Source: Sedimentisphaerales bacterium (GTDB lineage Bacteria > Planctomycetota > Phycisphaerae > Sedimentisphaerales > SG8-4). From it: DNA of 6,141 bases. A program made the translations under genes and the position numbers. Each line of letters starts with the position of its first letter. Positions within the stretch are counted from its first letter, which is position 1. Below are positions 1 through 6,141 of the stretch, piece after piece. The notes beneath the pieces were generated by a model. It searched no databases, was not told where the DNA came from, and was given only the letters and a program-made list of their open reading frames with translations. Location: the NCBI GenBank assembly GCA_016932895.1, contig JAFGCA010000308.1, positions 1-6,141 on the forward strand, read 5' to 3'.

Positions 1-443
1 AGGCGTTCGAATTCGCGAAAGTCCGAGGTCAGATAGAGCCCGACGCCCGGCCCCCCCTGCGAGTAGACCGCGGCGGCCACAGCATATCGGTCCAGCTCCG
101 GCACCCATGTGATTCGCGGATCTTCAATGCCCCAGATCTCTTCCGGGTACTCGTCGGTTAAAGGAGCCAAGGCGGGACGGCCGTTGATATCCCACGATCC
201 GATTCCATCTGGCGAGCGCGCGGTGCAGAGGTGCGAAATGCCGCAATGGTCCTCCACTCGGACCAGCAACAACACCTCACCGTCCTTACCCAACCGAACC
301 GCTCCAGGGTTGAACACCGCATTTGCCGGATACGGCCAATCATCGGCTTGCAGGATGGGGTTCTTTGGGTGCCGCTTCAGCAGTCCAACGTGGTGCGGAT
401 GTTGCCTGGGGCGCCGAGGTGATCTCGTTTCCTTGTTTGCCAC
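1..443 (-). CDS. GH130 family glycoside phosphorylase/hydrolase, N-terminal part (runs off the window)
   Basis: Family GH130 enzymes split or phosphorolyse beta-linked mannosides, in characterised members releasing mannose 1-phosphate or mannose; they form a five-bladed beta-propeller. The 147 visible residues show the family's N-terminal pattern: KNPIL (27-31), a WPY-x-x-NAVFNPGAV stretch (36-49), LLLVRVED (58-65), a SPDG..W substrate-loop motif (77-84) and GIEDPRIT (105-112), which contains the conserved Asp of the family. The start is taken as GTG at 443: it is preceded by AAGGAGG with a 5-nt spacer, and an in-frame stop lies 21 nt upstream of the GTG. The first 20 or so residues are Pro/Arg/His-rich and probably not part of the fold. 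The gene overlaps the end of the upstream glycosyltransferase gene by 104 nt, which implies translational coupling. Substrate and phosphorylase versus hydrolase activity cannot be decided, since the phosphate-binding residues lie partly beyond the window. Family call is firm; specificity is open. Confidence 0.9.
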   Translation of the reverse strand, partial: MANKETRSPRRPRQHPHHVGLLKRHPKNPILQADDWPYPANAVFNPGAVRLGKDGEVLLLVRVEDHCGISHLCTARSPDGIGSWDINGRPALAPLTDEYPEEIWGIEDPRITWVPELDRYAVAAAVYSQGGPGVGLYLTSDFREFER

Positions 444-2751
444 ACCGTCCTCCTTCCGTCTTCACATCGATTCCTTCGAGTGTGTTTGCTTCTGTCTCGT
501 TATTCGTGTCGCGCAGTTCGTGCATGGCAAGCAGACTCAACAGCCAAACGATCGTAGACTCTGCGCCCTGGTTCAGGTTGACTCCATCGGGTCCAAGACC
601 GTCATGACAACCTCCGGTGCCGTAGTCGTAAAGCGCCTGGCGAAGATCGTTCCTTCCAAGGAACCAGTCGAATGCCCGCTGGGCGCTCTTCACCCACAGC
701 TTCTCCCCGGTGGCCGTGTACGCGGCCAGGCACGCATCAATCATGGTGTAGGCCTCTATGGGCTGTTGATCGAACCGTGCGCGTTCGGCCCCGCGCTTGA
801 ACCATCCGCGGTTGCCGACGGGAACGAAGTGTCCGTCCTCGCCGGTCTGTAACCGGTCCAGCCAGTGCAGTGCATCGAGGCCACGGGCAACGATCTCACT
901 GTCGCCCAGCCCTTTCCCCGCCACGATCAGCGCGTGCGGAACCCGCGCATTGGCGTACGTGAGGGCGTCTTCAGGCCAAACCCAATCTGCGGAGGCTTTG
1001 TCCCGAAACTCCCCTGCAAGCGCTTCGGCCAGGCACCGGCGTTGGCGCAGAAACAACGAGGCGCCGGGATAGCGCCGCAGGTAAATATCGACCGCCAGAA
1101 GCGCAAAGGCCCGCGCGCGCAGCGACCCGAACGACGACACGGCGGGCACTGCCTCGTCCAGCAGCCGACAGGCCAATCCCCGTTTGCCTTCGTCGGGAGC
1201 GTCCTGCACGACGTGGGACAAAGCCCATAAGGCGCGGGCGTGAACGTCTTCCGTGGCCACCTGCCTGCTCCAGCTTCGCGCGTAGTCCATGAAATTCATG
1301 AAGCGTTGGGTGTTCCGGTCGAACGCATAGAGCAGATAGCCAAGATAGATCGCCGACAGATGGCCCCAGTCCGCCGCGTCAGGAAAACGGCGTCCCGCTT
1401 TGACGGCGACCATCAACGCGCGCGCCTGATCGTCGGTGCTGTAGCCGTGGTCCCTGTCCGGCACGCTGAACGACGCGTGTTGCAGGATGCCCACGTCGTC
1501 GGTCAGCTCGATCAAGTGGCGGGGATCCAGCGCCGGCAGATTCTGAACGCGGTTTGCTTTCGACCGCAGAACCGAGCACGGCTTGGGGGTCAGCGCCCGA
1601 CGCAGCATAACCTCCTCGAACGTCTTGACGTAGGCGCGAGCCACCTCACGCCAGATCATGCCGCGCCCCTGTCGATAGGCGCGCTTTCTCATCGCGTGAC
1701 GCTCCGCTTCATTGTCGAGAAGATCGTTTACCGTTTCGGCTATGCCTTCCGCGCTTTGGAAGGGCACGAGTCTTCCCCGTTCGTCCGACAGCATATCGAC
1801 GGCGTACCAGTAAGGCGTGGAGACGCAGGCCTTCCCCGTGCCCATGGCGTATGCCAGCGTGCCCGAGACGATCTGCGCTTCGTGGAGGTACGGCGTGATG
1901 TAGATATCCGCGGCTCCCAGGTACTCACAGAGCTCCTCCAGCTCGACATACTGGTTCTTGAACGCGACGTGCTTCTCGATGCCCAGTTCACGGGTTCGCT
2001 TCTGCAGCAGAATCCGATATTCCTCGCCTCTTTCCCGCTTGATATGCGGGTGGGTTGTTCCCAACACGACGCACACCACATCCGGATGGTTGTCGACGAT
2101 GTGGGGAAGCGCCTCGATGACGTACTCGATGCCTTTATTGGGAGAGAGCAACCCGAAAGTCAGCAAGACACGGCATCCCTCCGCGTTCAACTTGTCCTTG
2201 TAGTAATTCGGATCGACAAACGGCATGTCCGGGATGCCATGGTGTATCAGCGTAATCTTGTCGGGCGGTACGCGGTAAATGTCGGCCAGAAACTCGCGCG
2301 CCTTGGGGCTCATCACAACCAGCCGATCGGAGACCGCGGTCAACTCGTTCATGACGGTTCGTTGTTCGGGCGATGGAGCCGCCAGAACCGTATGCAGCGT
2401 GGTCACGATAGGGGCTCGAATCTGACGCAGCATGGGCAGAAGGTATCGCCCCTCGGCGCCGCCGTAGATGCCGTATTCGTGCTGCACGCAAACCGCGTCA
2501 ACCTGGCTGATGTTGATATAGTCCGCAGCGAGATCATACTGATCGCGCTGCTGATCGGATATCTCGAAACGAACGGTCTCGGGGTAGGCATAGCCCCGCT
2601 CCGTATCGTTCATGGCGACGGCCAAGCATTCCACATCTTCGGCCTCACACATGACGGCGGTGCATAAATCCGTGGTAAAGGTCGCGATGCCGCACCGGCG
2701 AGGCAGGTAGTTGCCCACGAATGCCACTCTACGCATTGTGCCCTCGCTCAT
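340..2751 (-). CDS. GT4 glycosyltransferase fused to a C-terminal alpha-helical, toroid-like domain
   Basis: Residues about 6-385 form a GT-B glycosyltransferase of family 4. Visible marks are the N-terminal GNYLPRRCGIATFT loop (13-26), VQHEYGIYGG (89-98), TLHTVL (118-123), the interdomain strand with LLTFGLLSPNKGIEY (196-210), and the nucleotide-sugar site around HEAQIVSGTLAYAMGTGKA (290-308). Residues about 405-745 are a second domain rich in helices with regularly spaced acidic motifs: GYSTDDQARAL (435-445), EDVHARALWAL (501-511), WPEDALTYANARVPHAL (592-608), FDQQPIEAY (660-668) and LNQGAESTIVWL (726-737). This looks like an alpha/alpha-toroid carbohydrate-active domain. The last 55 or so residues look unstructured and overlap the next gene. 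There is no signal peptide, so it is cytoplasmic. ATG at 2751 is chosen for its AGGAG with a 7-nt spacer; Met6 is an alternative. It lies 28 nt after the upstream gene. Sugar donor and product are not readable; adjacency to GH130 suggests a mannose-containing glycan (inference). Confidence 0.88.
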   Translation of the reverse strand: MSEGTMRRVAFVGNYLPRRCGIATFTTDLCTAVMCEAEDVECLAVAMNDTERGYAYPETVRFEISDQQRDQYDLAADYINISQVDAVCVQHEYGIYGGAEGRYLLPMLRQIRAPIVTTLHTVLAAPSPEQRTVMNELTAVSDRLVVMSPKAREFLADIYRVPPDKITLIHHGIPDMPFVDPNYYKDKLNAEGCRVLLTFGLLSPNKGIEYVIEALPHIVDNHPDVVCVVLGTTHPHIKRERGEEYRILLQKRTRELGIEKHVAFKNQYVELEELCEYLGAADIYITPYLHEAQIVSGTLAYAMGTGKACVSTPYWYAVDMLSDERGRLVPFQSAEGIAETVNDLLDNEAERHAMRKRAYRQGRGMIWREVARAYVKTFEEVMLRRALTPKPCSVLRSKANRVQNLPALDPRHLIELTDDVGILQHASFSVPDRDHGYSTDDQARALMVAVKAGRRFPDAADWGHLSAIYLGYLLYAFDRNTQRFMNFMDYARSWSRQVATEDVHARALWALSHVVQDAPDEGKRGLACRLLDEAVPAVSSFGSLRARAFALLAVDIYLRRYPGASLFLRQRRCLAEALAGEFRDKASADWVWPEDALTYANARVPHALIVAGKGLGDSEIVARGLDALHWLDRLQTGEDGHFVPVGNRGWFKRGAERARFDQQPIEAYTMIDACLAAYTATGEKLWVKSAQRAFDWFLGRNDLRQALYDYGTGGCHDGLGPDGVNLNQGAESTIVWLLSLLAMHELRDTNNETEANTLEGIDVKTEGGRCGKQGNEITSAPQATSAPRWTAEAAPKEPHPASR
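449..455 (-). promoter_or_regulatory. Ribosome binding site of the GH130 gene, inside the upstream coding region
   Basis: On the minus strand the sequence AAGGAGG sits 5 nt before the GTG codon at 443-441. It is a near-perfect Shine-Dalgarno site, and it fixes the GH130 start although it lies within the 3' end of the glycosyltransferase gene. No ATG in the same frame lies nearby, and a TGA in this frame lies just upstream at about 464-462. Confidence 0.75.
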
Positions 2752-2779
2752 TCGTTTGCTCCTATCTCACTCATTTCGA

Positions 2780-3496
2780 TCACTTTTGCTCACTGTGTTC
2801 ATCCTTCTCCATCCCGCCGATGAGACGCTCGGTAGCGCTCAGAAGTTCGTCGACCTTCTTTTTCGAATCTTCCGCTTTGGAACGAACGGCAGCCATCGCC
2901 TCGGAAAGCGTGCGCCTCATGTCCGTGACGTCAGAATCGTAAGCATGGTCGGCGCCCAGAATTGCGCGCGCCTCCCCTAGGTGCTCCGACGCCTCTTCCA
3001 GGTGCCGGGCGGCGCGGTCCAGTTTCTCTCTTGCGCAAAGCCCCTGGGCCAGTGTCACCTGGACCTTCGCCAGCAGCAGTTTCGTTCTGGCTTCCATCCG
3101 CCGAACCCGGCGGGATAGCGCCTCCTGGGCCTTGCGTGCCGCCGACAGGGTGTTATCCGCCGCCGACTTGGCGTTCGATTCCAACTGTCGTTCCAGTTCC
3201 TGAAGCTGCCGCGACGCCAGCTCGGCCTGCTTCTTCACGCCCTCGGATGTCTCGTTCTTGAGCCTGTCCAGGTTCGCTCTGATCCGCTCGATCCTTCGCC
3301 GGCTTCGCTCGTAGGCAGCGGCCACGCCTTCCGACATGTGCTCGAGCAGCTCTTTCTGTTTTGCGCGCAACCGGTCCAACTCGTCTTCGATCCGCGCCCG
3401 CGCGATTTCGACATCCCGCTTCCCGCCGGAACGCCAGTAGGCGACGGCGGCAAGCCCCAGACTCACAAATGCGATGACCAACGAAACGATATTCAT
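2780..3496 (-). CDS. Membrane-anchored coiled-coil protein of unknown function
   Basis: I do not recognise a named family. Residues 3-20 form one hydrophobic segment followed by Trp-Arg and a basic stretch, which reads as an N-terminal membrane anchor (or uncleaved signal) with the rest on one side of the membrane. Residues about 28-150 are almost uninterrupted heptad-like helix, rich in Glu, Arg, Lys, Leu and Ala, with no Pro in the whole protein: a long coiled coil. Residues about 155-230 look like a further helical hairpin, including HLGEARAILG (172-181), a motif echoed in the upstream YfdX-family protein. The start ATG at 3496 is preceded by GAGGAGG with an 8-nt spacer. It begins 22 nt after the HPF-sigma gene and ends 28 nt before the glycosyltransferase gene, so it is inside the operon. 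A structural or scaffold role at the envelope is possible, but nothing in the sequence shows an activity. Confidence 0.82.
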   Translation of the reverse strand: MNIVSLVIAFVSLGLAAVAYWRSGGKRDVEIARARIEDELDRLRAKQKELLEHMSEGVAAAYERSRRRIERIRANLDRLKNETSEGVKKQAELASRQLQELERQLESNAKSAADNTLSAARKAQEALSRRVRRMEARTKLLLAKVQVTLAQGLCAREKLDRAARHLEEASEHLGEARAILGADHAYDSDVTDMRRTLSEAMAAVRSKAEDSKKKVDELLSATERLIGGMEKDEHSEQK

Positions 3497-3518
3497 GATT
3501 CCAACCTCCTCTCTTGTT

Positions 3519-4730
3519 TCAGCGACTTCTCTTTGACTCCCTTTCCCGATATCTATGTGATCTTCCTGCTGTCTCCATCACTCCTTCCCGCCCCTGTGCC
3601 GTTACCTTTGACTGGCGGGCAACAGCGTGGAGATGCTTCGCGTACGATTCCGCCCGCTCCGCCGACGGTCTTACCTTTTCGCCGGTTCCCGTCAACTCGG
3701 TGAGCACGCTGCGCAATCGTGCGCCAATCCGGGAAACGGCTGTCTCCACCGCCGCCCGTTCGCAGCCGAACGCATGCGCAACATCGTCCACGCTCATGCC
3801 TTCCAGAAAGTGCAGTTGAAAAATCTCCCGATCGGTATTCGGCCATTGACGCGATACACTCCGCAGAGCGGCCAGCATGTCCATCCGGGCAACCTCCGTC
3901 TCCGGTGACTCGGCATGCGGATCGGGGATAAGGTCCGCCAACGTTGTTTCATCAGGTTCCAGGTAGTTCTGGAGCAGGTTCAGAGCGAGTTCCTCTGGTT
4001 CCAGATCGTCGTCGCCGTTGGGCACCGCCTCCGGCGACGAATCCAGATCGACCGTAACGGAAATGCGCGCCTCCTCCGCATAAAGGCGCACAGCTTTGCG
4101 CGTTTCCCGGAAGGCAAGGGAAGAACACCAGCTATGGTAGTCCATCGATTCGGGCTTCAGCTCCGGGTTCCTCAATGCGTACTCGGCCACGCAGTCAACG
4201 ATGTCGTGCGGATCGATAGCGCCCCTGGGTATGGATCCGCCGCCGACATATTCGGTAAGCCGGCGCGAGACGAAGCCGAGCAGACACGCATAGTCCTGTT
4301 TCAAGACTTCAACAACCGCATCCTCGCGGCTCTGGGGGCCCTGGCGTGCGGGCAATGGGCCCTCGGTGAACGCAACCTCCCGCTCAGGGATTCTTTCGGC
4401 GCGGCGATGCTTCCATGTATGGTCCTTGCGGTATCTGGCCTTCAGACGCTTCAAGCGGCGCACCAGCGTATTGACGCCTTCGTCCAGGGCCGCAATGAGG
4501 CTCTCCGATTCTTTGCTCACGTGCAACACATCGGAAGGCACACGGAGATTCAGCGTGACTTCGTACGTCTTGTCCGACGCTCGCGAGTCCAGGCCGATCT
4601 GGAGATGAACGGCATCCCGCGGGAAATGCGCTAGATGCTTCTCCAGCTTCGCTATCTTCGGCCGGAGCTTCGCCGCGATCACGTCGTGGTCCTGCCCGGC
4701 TCGGTCGACGATGTTCCAGTTGATAATCAT
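3519..4730 (-). CDS. Fusion of a ribosome hibernation factor (HPF/RaiA) domain to a sigma-70/ECF-like module
   Basis: Residues 1-105 match the HPF/RaiA (S30AE, 'sigma-54 modulation') fold: a short beta strand, the helix HDVIAAKLRPKIAKLEKHL (15-33), strands around VHLQIGLDS (41-49) and YEVTLNLRVP (56-65), then the helix SLIAALDEGVNTLVRRLKRLKARYRK (77-102) with the basic end typical of ribosome-binding members. Such proteins occupy the mRNA/tRNA channel of the 30S subunit and silence ribosomes in stress. After a linker, residues about 137-215 resemble sigma region 2 (HDIVDCVAEYALR, 175-187, is like the DLVQE helix of ECF factors). Residues 282-345 resemble sigma region 4: a helix-turn-helix with DREIFQLHFLEGMSVDDVAHAFGC (300-323). 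An acidic stretch (228-280) separates them. The C-terminal tail (351-403) is basic. There is no signal peptide. The start at 4730 has only a weak GAGAG upstream. The sigma part is divergent, so DNA or polymerase binding is inferred, not certain. Confidence 0.85.
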   Translation of the reverse strand: MIINWNIVDRAGQDHDVIAAKLRPKIAKLEKHLAHFPRDAVHLQIGLDSRASDKTYEVTLNLRVPSDVLHVSKESESLIAALDEGVNTLVRRLKRLKARYRKDHTWKHRRAERIPEREVAFTEGPLPARQGPQSREDAVVEVLKQDYACLLGFVSRRLTEYVGGGSIPRGAIDPHDIVDCVAEYALRNPELKPESMDYHSWCSSLAFRETRKAVRLYAEEARISVTVDLDSSPEAVPNGDDDLEPEELALNLLQNYLEPDETTLADLIPDPHAESPETEVARMDMLAALRSVSRQWPNTDREIFQLHFLEGMSVDDVAHAFGCERAAVETAVSRIGARLRSVLTELTGTGEKVRPSAERAESYAKHLHAVARQSKVTAQGREGVMETAGRSHRYRERESKRSR

Positions 4731-4756
4731 AAGGTCTCTCGGCGCCGGTCGGCCCG

Positions 4757-4778
4757 CCGGGGCTCGGCTGAGCCCCGG
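4757..4778 (-). other. Perfect GC-rich inverted repeat (hairpin) between the YfdX-family gene and the HPF-sigma gene
   Basis: On the minus strand CCGGGGCTC and GAGCCCCGG pair perfectly over 9 bp around a 4-nt loop (AGCC). It sits 14 nt after the YfdX-family stop codon and 26 nt before the HPF-sigma start. A second perfect 14-bp palindrome (4775-4788) overlaps its 5' side, so alternative folds are possible. No T-run follows, so it is not a standard intrinsic terminator. It may stabilise the upstream transcript end, mark an RNA processing point or weaken readthrough into the downstream genes. No function is shown by sequence alone. Confidence 0.6.
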
Positions 4779-4792
4779 CCGCGGCCGGATGT

Positions 4793-5830
4793 TTACTTTT
4801 TCCTGGGCTGCTCGGCCTGTTCGCCTTCGCCCTCCTCAACCACGTGAGCCTGGCCCGGTTCTTCGCGGAACCAGCTCACGGCCCGCTCCCAGAACTCGCG
4901 GATCTTCTCCGCGGCGCCCTTTTCCTCGGTCTTGGGCATCAGCGCGGCGATATCGTCCTCAAGTTTCTGGACGCCCTTGGCCACCTCCTTGCCCAGCAGC
5001 GCCCGATAGGTGCCGAGATGGATCTGGGCGAGGCGCAGGTTGTCGCGCGCGGCTTCGTGCTTGCCCTCTTCGACCATGCGCTCGGCCAGTCGCAGGGCAT
5101 GCTGGACCTTGACCAGCGGGTCATCCGCCTCGTTCACAACCAGCTCGATGCCTCGCGTCTGTGCAAGGGCCAGTTGCGCAAGCGCATCCTCCGGCTTGTC
5201 AAGCAGGACCGCCGCGCGGTTGAGCTTCCGCTCGATGTAGCTCAGATCCGCGAGCACCGACGTGTGAATCACGTTGGCGTCCGCAAGACGGAGCCCTTTG
5301 AGAGCGGCATCCTCCTCTTTGGCGTCAACGATGGGTTCAACCACTTCCATGGCGATCATGCCGCGGTACAGGGGAATGCGGTCGTCCTGGACCTTGTCAA
5401 TGTCCCGGTAGACCTCCTTGCCCTTAGCGTCTTTCACGACCGTGGTCACCGTGGTGACGGGCAACAATTCCCTCACAACCTTCGTCAGGGCCTGGGCCTT
5501 CTCGATCTCCGGCTTTGCCGCATCCGGGTCCTGATCGAGCAGCCCTTTGACGCCTTCATTGACGTGGTTAACGATCCGCGACGTCAGGAGCGACACCTGG
5601 TGCAGATCCTGCGCGGACAACTTGCCTTCGGTCCGCCGCTCCACCGTTGTCTGATAGCGCTCGCCGCTGCCGGTTGTGATGGTTGACTGATCCCGCTGCT
5701 CGTCGACGTCCTTCGCCTTCTCCGCGGCTACGACCGTCGTCCCAGCAAACAGGACCAGCGCCAGCAGGGCGACAACGCCGACAATCGCCTTGCCTTCTTT
5801 GTTATGAAGAAGATTTCGAATCGTGTTCAT
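4793..5830 (-). CDS. Exported YfdX-family stress protein
   Basis: Residues 1-36 are a signal peptide: two Lys/Arg patches, a hydrophobic core (15-30) and a VVAA end that suggests cleavage before Glu37, so the protein should be periplasmic or surface-exposed (or anchored if uncleaved). The mature part is mostly amphipathic helix in two blocks: about 70-122, then a short beta-like segment (VTTVTTVVKDAKGKEVYRDI, 125-144) with RIPLYRGMIAMEVVEP (151-166), and a second helical block about 175-298 with HLGTYRALLG (271-280). This layout fits the YfdX family (Pfam YfdX), whose members are stress-linked helical proteins, seen for example beside Hsp20 in transmissible stress-tolerance loci; their molecular role is poorly defined. 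The tail (325-345) is Glu-rich and ends in basic residues. The start ATG at 5830 has AAAGGAGG with an 8-nt spacer. It lies 136 nt downstream of the hsp20-like gene. The family call rests on layout and remembered pattern, not a search. Confidence 0.72.
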   Translation of the reverse strand: MNTIRNLLHNKEGKAIVGVVALLALVLFAGTTVVAAEKAKDVDEQRDQSTITTGSGERYQTTVERRTEGKLSAQDLHQVSLLTSRIVNHVNEGVKGLLDQDPDAAKPEIEKAQALTKVVRELLPVTTVTTVVKDAKGKEVYRDIDKVQDDRIPLYRGMIAMEVVEPIVDAKEEDAALKGLRLADANVIHTSVLADLSYIERKLNRAAVLLDKPEDALAQLALAQTRGIELVVNEADDPLVKVQHALRLAERMVEEGKHEAARDNLRLAQIHLGTYRALLGKEVAKGVQKLEDDIAALMPKTEEKGAAEKIREFWERAVSWFREEPGQAHVVEEGEGEQAEQPRKK

Positions 5831-5857
5831 TGTCTGTTCCTCCTTTCGTTGAGTCCG

Positions 5858-5911
5858 TCAGATCTGTCGCATGTCTTCTTCAGGTTCAATCAACTGGTCG
5901 ATGTCTGCCAT
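5858..5911 (-). CDS. Possible 17-residue small protein between the hsp20-like and YfdX-family genes
   Basis: ATG at 5911 opens a 17-codon frame reading MADIDQLIEPEEDMRQI, acidic and with helix-like composition, ending in TGA 27 nt before the YfdX-family start. The nearest purine-rich stretch (AGAGGAA) is about 12 nt upstream, too far to be a good ribosome site. In the same frame further upstream there is ATG-ACC-TAG right after an excellent Shine-Dalgarno sequence, so this could be the remainder of a slightly longer small gene (about 26 codons) broken by an early TAG, a reinitiating leader, or chance. No homology is known to me. Confidence 0.25.
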   Translation of the reverse strand: MADIDQLIEPEEDMRQI

Positions 5912-5943
5912 CCGGTGCTGAGTTCCTCTCTAGGTCATATGCC

Positions 5944-5953
5944 ATCACCTCCT
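5944..5953 (-). promoter_or_regulatory. Extended Shine-Dalgarno sequence in the hsp20-YfdX gap
   Basis: AGGAGGTGAT on the minus strand matches ten consecutive bases complementary to the conserved 3' end of bacterial 16S rRNA. It lies 13 nt after the hsp20-like stop codon. Possible starts after it are the ATG at 5945 (overlapping the site, spacing too short; 19 codons) and the ATG at 5938, 9 nt after GGAGG, which reaches TAG after two codons. No full gene follows at the proper distance, so the site seems to serve a very short or broken frame. Confidence 0.5.
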
Positions 5954-5966
5954 CTTGGGATGCACA

Positions 5967-6141
5967 TCATTTGCCTTCGGTTGCCTTGGGAATCTCGATA
6001 TAGAGAACGCCCTTCTCGTTCTGCGTCGTCATCTTGTCGGCCTGCACGGGACTCGGAAGCGTGATCCTTCGCTGGAACTTTCCGCTCCTGCGTTCCTGCC
6101 GCAGCATTTTGCCTCCATCTTCTTCCCTGGACTCCGATTCA
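5967..6141 (-). CDS. Small heat-shock protein (Hsp20/alpha-crystallin family), C-terminal part
   Basis: Only the last 57 residues are in the window; the start is beyond 6141. They show the second half of an alpha-crystallin domain: a Glu-rich loop, ERRSGKFQRRITLPSPVQADK (16-36 of the visible part), then NEKGVLYIEIPK (41-52), the GVL strand-turn signature of the family. The IEI there belongs to the last strand, just before the PK, and the protein stops five residues later, so the usual flexible C-terminal extension with a separate I-x-I/V motif is absent or very short. Hsp20 proteins form ATP-independent oligomeric holdases that keep unfolding proteins soluble in the cytoplasm under heat and other stress. 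As the first visible gene, it probably lies near the promoter of this unit, which is outside the window. Stop TGA at 5969-5967. Confidence 0.93.
   Translation of the reverse strand, partial: ESESREEDGGKMLRQERRSGKFQRRITLPSPVQADKMTTQNEKGVLYIEIPKATEGK

Follow-up and report, generated by a model that had tools for sequence, protein, structure and literature searches.

A ribosome-hibernation domain and a sigma-like module in one chain, found within bacterial stress-protein clusters

Can one protein chain carry the state of the ribosome to the start of transcription? The question is raised by a gene in a 6,141-nucleotide stretch of DNA from a Sedimentisphaerales bacterium (Planctomycetota; contig JAFGCA010000308.1 of assembly GCA_016932895.1, positions 1 to 6,141; hereafter, the window). 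A single minus-strand frame of 403 residues (3519..4730) almost certainly joins a fold of the ribosome-hibernation factor HPF to an ECF-like sigma region 2, a region 3.2-like stretch and a sigma region 4. We favour, tentatively, the reading that this fusion is a two-headed stress regulator carried in protein-quality-control clusters, which in the clade of the window protein would act as a ribosome-gated sigma factor. If that is true, it would be, to our knowledge, the first direct link between ribosome hibernation and transcription initiation in one chain, and ribosome state may thus be tied to stress-gene control through one protein. The gene and its parts, all on the minus strand, are as follows.

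3519..4730, minus: coding sequence of the HPF-sigma fusion, 403 residues (frame list, Pfam and protein-set search)
4428..4730, minus: HPF/RaiA (S30AE) domain, residues 1-101 (PF02482; Foldseek match to HPF 8uu7)
4326..4427, minus: linker, residues 102-135 (pLDDT below 50 at 103-106 and 108-127)
4065..4325, minus: sigma region 2-like helices, residues 136-222 (Foldseek matches to ECF factors; family profile against AlgU; TIGR02937 from residue 191; no Pfam match)
3906..3998, minus: region 3.2-like stretch, residues 245-275 (alignment with WhiG)
3693..3905, minus: sigma region 4, residues 276-346 (PF08281)
3711..3767, minus: stretch with the recognition helix of region 4, residues 322-340 (basic in the window clade by net charge)

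Two halves of one frame

A sequence-only reading of the window had proposed an N-terminal S30AE domain and a C-terminal sigma module with regions 2 and 4. The first is borne out: the Pfam model PF02482 (Ribosomal_S30AE) matches residues 20-100 (E 1e-8; 36.2 bits, above the cut-off of 23.7), and the NCBIfam model TIGR00741 (yfiA) matches at E 9.5e-9 with 35.7 bits, under its equivalog cut-off of 40.9. As to the sigma module, region 4 is recognized by PF08281 (Sigma70_r4_2; residues 297-334, E 6.7e-7; 29.3 bits, above the cut-off of 25.7), whereas region 2 has no Pfam match and is indicated by fold and profile. TIGR02937 (sigma70-ECF) spans residues 191-341 at E 3.3e-8, its 33.3 bits falling under the cut-off of 42.9. 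When the predicted model of the chain (pLDDT 68.4, pTM 0.36) was searched with Foldseek, HPFs ranked first (8uu7: E 2.7e-5, TM-score 0.87 on the target) and ECF sigma factors next, several of them with bound anti-sigma factors; these sigma matches run over approximately 210-220 columns with a large root-mean-square deviation (r.m.s.d., 12.6-27).

Three observations support region 2. The model aligns with RpoE of B. quintana (E 2.5e-4, 217 columns, r.m.s.d. 16.3) and with SigW (E 5.3e-4), an 89-row family profile aligns an AlgU-type sigma factor starting at region 2 (E 5e-13), and a relative from Agrobacterium exceeds the TIGR02937 cut-off over residues 136-331 (45.7 versus 42.9 bits). With a profile built from the window protein's own relatives, alignment to sigma factors of solved structure began only at profile position 205. 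The close-family profile also matched WhiG from ahead of region 4 (E 7.5e-8), pairing '..tladvipD..' with '..LSLMDTLED..', and we take this WhiG-aligned stretch to be region 3.2-like.

Proteins of the HPF/RaiA/YfiA family (S30AE, PF02482) otherwise stand alone or carry the C-terminal domain of long HPF, whereas in the window protein the partner is a sigma module. Some ECF sigma factors have regulatory extensions, among them ECF41 and ECF56, and likewise hold regions 2 and 4 and an extra domain in one chain; in the fusion this domain lies at the N terminus and is of a ribosome-binding type, and the region 3.2-like stretch resembles WhiG. In the main text of a review of ECF factors (PMC8999054), no word begins with 'ribosom'. 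Both halves are already named in databases, and the automatic names of some relatives join the two (for example, P0073, 'sigma24 family protein/ribosome-associated translation i...'). As far as we found, the fusion is unstudied: judged by titles and the openings of abstracts, no paper on an HPF-sigma fusion came to light in the open-access literature, in keeping with the earlier remark that no characterized protein with this layout is known.

A family that includes Orf11 of a mobile stress island

In a set of 5.8 billion proteins, the fusion had 16 matches including its own, the other 15 at E 2.7e-155 to 4.2e-57; 13 of these cover at least 84% of the query, and two (P0005 and P0013) begin late. 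A layout shared by 13 further near full-length proteins is beyond chance, which upholds the earlier view that the fusion is real. Among the 16, the window protein included, S30AE was matched in 14 and region 4 in 16 at E 0.01, and TIGR02937 in all 16 at E 0.001. One further locus returned by the fusion query (L003) matches residues 300-401 only and was dropped. Each of three genomes (G001, G002 and G309) also has a stand-alone S30AE frame of 120-129 residues, so the fusion is an extra beside stand-alone HPF.

With the window protein as query, 72,556 plasmid records gave 13 matches, all alphaproteobacterial and 26.5-28.3% identical, nine of them over at least 80% of the query. With the Agrobacterium member as query, the same records gave 286 matches (270 covering at least 80%), mostly from Klebsiella (124), Enterobacter (74), Acinetobacter (30) and Escherichia (17). 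Full-length matches thereby chain the window protein through the alphaproteobacterial plasmids to Orf11 (25.7% identity over 89%), a gene product of the mobile heat- and chlorine-tolerance island that is known from E. coli and called tLST, LHR or TLPQC. Given this chained search, a joint tree and the same two folds, the window fusion and Orf11 very probably belong to one family, in which the sigma half of Orf11 is degenerate. Orf11 itself has no Pfam match even at E 10 and no NCBIfam match. Its gene lies between hdeD-GI and trx-GI and is probably the same as ORF10 in P. aeruginosa. The kinship supplies a domain identity for an unexplained gene of a studied island, whose role is directly testable; both it and the stress-island context go beyond the sequence-only reading. 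Of 5,426 complete E. coli genomes, 152 match orf11 DNA and 144 cover at least 80% of it (a count of cover only, with frames unchecked). In a proteome study (PMC7010813), 11 LHR proteins were detected, one of them hypothetical.

For family-wide comparisons we used a hand-picked alignment of 89 near full-length members, comprising 14 of the 16 window relatives, 16 of 120 listed matches (137 found) and 59 of 99 from another search. Its 'intermediate' set consists of metagenome proteins of mostly unassigned origin, one of which (P0192) is named Gaiellaceae. At E 0.01, S30AE is matched in 59 of the 89 and region 4 (PF08281) in 74. The family tree is midpoint-rooted with 13 forks open, and its meeting of the long alphaproteobacterial and window branches calls for caution. 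Phylum surveys at E 1e-15, whose draws share genomes and in which only the top four to six candidates per genome were scored, gave 2 of 387 genomes in one case and 1 of 288 in the other, counts that include the query genomes (G002 and G001); on this evidence, the fusion seems rare there. A scan of viral contigs found no relative, and PADLOC recognized none of the proteins given to it (the fusion, Orf11, YfdX and the glycosyltransferase).

Ribosome-gated sigma factor, sigma mimic or hibernation factor

HPF domains sit in the mRNA and tRNA path of the small ribosomal subunit, and a sigma module tethered to one should therefore be retained by vacant ribosomes. In the favoured reading, the HPF head would dock at the decoding centre of idle 30S or 70S ribosomes in place of mRNA and tRNA. 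Ribosome binding is probable, its computed basis being charge and fold (the head carries a net positive charge in all 89 members). In the window clade, the sigma head would bind RNA polymerase and a promoter, probably one of the surrounding proteostasis genes; we give promoter binding in this clade an even chance. Held on idle ribosomes, the fusion would lose its sigma activity; when ribosomes are engaged it would stay free, so that transcription of the island would track the fraction of working ribosomes. Gating of this kind is put forward with reserve, and its direction is unsure. In tLST members of the gamma- and betaproteobacterial type, on the same reading, the sigma head has lost its basic recognition helix and would more probably serve on the ribosome as a sigma mimic or an RNA polymerase tether.

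The family divides by the recognition helix of region 4. Over residues 322-340, the mean net charge is +2.1 in the window clade (positive in 14 of 14) and +3.3 in clean ECF controls (18 of 18), which were frames from genomes G001-G003 and G309 after 5 of 23 that did not span the helix had been dropped (all 23: +2.6). In the other 75 members it is -2, positive in two and non-basic in 73, a comparison made without a PhyR control. The Pfam models of the anti-anti-sigma factor PhyR (PF22233 and PF22029), which has a sigma-like fold, match members outside the window clade: PhyR_sigma-like matches 26 of the 89 members, and the PhyR model matches none of the 16 window relatives at E 0.01. On this split, promoter binding may persist in the window clade, whereas tLST members may act as sigma mimics on the ribosome. 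The earlier suggestion that ribosome state could control transcription remains an inference, compatible with the window clade, with its basic helix and region 3.2-like stretch, and weaker for tLST members, given their non-basic helix and the deletion data for orf11 in the study cited below.

Several observations weigh against a ribosome-gated sigma factor. Region 2 of the window protein (136-222) has no Pfam match even at E 1. The recognition helix of the window clade is less basic than that of the ECF controls (P = 0.004), and its whole helix-turn-helix is slightly acidic (mean -1.6, versus +1.8 in the clean controls). Between the window and a related locus in genome G309 (L021), silent sites are saturated for regions 2 and 4, so that constraint is not measurable; between E. 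coli and Acinetobacter, the ratio of non-synonymous to synonymous change (dN/dS) is 1.0 for HPF, 1.25 for region 2 and 0.28 for region 4 at a dS of 0.05-0.13; and alphaproteobacterial dN/dS values are blurred by mosaic exchange. In E. coli MG1655 lacZ::LHR, 7 of 13 tLST genes were required for heat or chlorine resistance, orf11 not being named among them in the available part of the report, and deletion of orf11 left lipid oxidation unchanged (PMC8407380). As orf11 is not among the resistance-lowering deletions and lipid oxidation was unchanged, Orf11 is disfavoured as a switch that turns the island on. The open-access literature we covered yielded no binding or regulatory experiment.

A PhyR-like sigma mimic, in which the HPF half places the protein on ribosomes and the partner of the sigma half is RNA polymerase or an anti-sigma factor rather than a promoter, is rather unlikely overall; it is likely for the gamma- and betaproteobacterial tLST members and less so for the window clade. 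PhyR carries a receiver domain where the fusion has its HPF domain, and no receiver model is among the families matched by the 89 members. More members are recognized by sigma models (PF08281, 74 of 89; TIGR02937, 55 of 89) than by PhyR models, although the best E-values are alike family-wide (1.4e-7 for PF08281 and 8.9e-8 for PhyR_sigma-like), and a shared fold demonstrates no function. The Agrobacterium member belongs to the non-basic group and still passes the TIGR02937 cut-off over a match that runs through both sigma regions, which speaks against sigma function simply having been lost. Among the annotations of the opened loci there is no NepR-like gene, although no search aimed at NepR was made.

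We consider it more doubtful that the fusion is mainly a hibernation factor, its sigma-derived half serving as a scaffold that pairs ribosomes or parks RNA polymerase beside them. In long HPF, the C-terminal domain pairs ribosomes. In the alphaproteobacterial and window sets, conservation is highest in HPF (mean pairwise identity of 0.80 versus 0.51 for region 4, and 0.60 versus 0.45), and the available part of the deletion study reports no resistance phenotype for loss of orf11 (PMC8407380). However, a scaffold would not need the basic recognition helix and region 3.2-like stretch that the window clade keeps, and in the beta, gamma and intermediate sets the conservation of regions 2 and 4 equals or exceeds that of HPF. 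A chance or decaying fusion without function is very improbable: outside the window clade the sigma half has drifted far, to the point that Orf11 escapes Pfam, but 89 near full-length members align over separate clades with S30AE and region 4 widely matched, 144 E. coli genomes cover most of orf11, and dN/dS stays below 0.5 for regions 2 and 4 in the measured alpha- and betaproteobacterial pairs.

In those pairs, dN/dS is 0.15-0.24 for region 2 (six of six) and 0.21-0.45 for region 4 (five of six, the sixth having identical region 4 sequences); judged from these substitution rates, the sigma parts are under constraint where it is measurable. Between the Agrobacterium and Methylorubrum fusion genes (L010-L014), dS is 0.03 for HPF, 0.63 for region 2, 0.00 around region 3.2 and 0.78 for region 4, a mosaic that points to exchange of sigma parts. 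A bolder version of the ribosome-gated sigma factor seems to us improbable: a one-molecule ribosome-to-RNA polymerase switch on mobile proteostasis islands, in which the HPF head would sense vacant ribosomes and thereby set how much of the on-board sigma factor is free, alphaproteobacterial regions 2 and 4 would be swapped under a constant HPF head like an exchangeable specificity part, and Orf11 of Enterobacteriaceae would have become a ribosome-bound sigma mimic.

Genes around the fusion

The window reads Hsp20, YfdX, fusion, coiled-coil-like protein and glycosyltransferase in gene order, with these features beside the fusion.

5967..6141, minus: Hsp20 small heat shock protein, C-terminal part, cut by the window end (PF00011, E 5.5e-12)
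5930..5952, minus: very strong Shine-Dalgarno sequence ahead of a two-codon mini-frame (ATG-ACN-TAG), between the Hsp20 gene and yfdX
4793..5830, minus: YfdX-family protein, 345 residues, upstream neighbour of the fusion (PF10938, E 1.1e-8)
2780..3496, minus: downstream neighbour of the fusion, a coiled-coil-like protein that begins with a hydrophobic segment (both by eye; Pfam matches under the cut-off only)
340..2751, minus: glycosyltransferase family 4 protein with a long C-terminal part (PF00534, E 4.7e-20)
3-443, minus: glycosidase-like frame (by eye only), cut by the window end; like the glycosyltransferase gene, it follows the stress genes

Hsp20, YfdX, ClpK, FtsH, DegP or GroEL lies within approximately 10 kb of the fusion in 14 of 14 loci, a hand-picked, non-random set (the window, L001, L002, L010-L019 and L021). 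Directly upstream of the fusion is Hsp20 in L001 and DegP in L002. Locus L011 is on the megaplasmid of Methylorubrum extorquens AM1, its fusion frame reaching to position 13167. Alphaproteobacterial plasmids hold PsiE, Hsp20, MarR, FtsH, ClpK, fusion, HdeD and YfdX in varying sets, and Burkholderia and Paraburkholderia plasmids hold Hsp20s, fusion, GroES, GroEL and DnaK.

The coiled-coil-like protein starts 22 bases past the stop of the fusion and has no family above the cut-off. The mini-frame element recurs in L021 (5429-5451), between DegP and yfdX. Its exact pattern occurs in 2 of 387 genomes: in G309, at the matching place, and in G089, inside a 927-residue frame that is not a cluster gene. 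The leaders of the window and L021 align no better than shuffled DNA (score of 26, versus 27 for the best of 300 shuffles), so the element is merely recorded here. Rfam, run on the window and L021, matched only a tRNA in L021 (179-252). The order of L021 is four Hsp20 genes, DegP, a broken yfdX (5522-5889) and the fusion; with the tRNA and a Recombinase-family frame (416-1135) beside them, the cluster resembles a genomic island.
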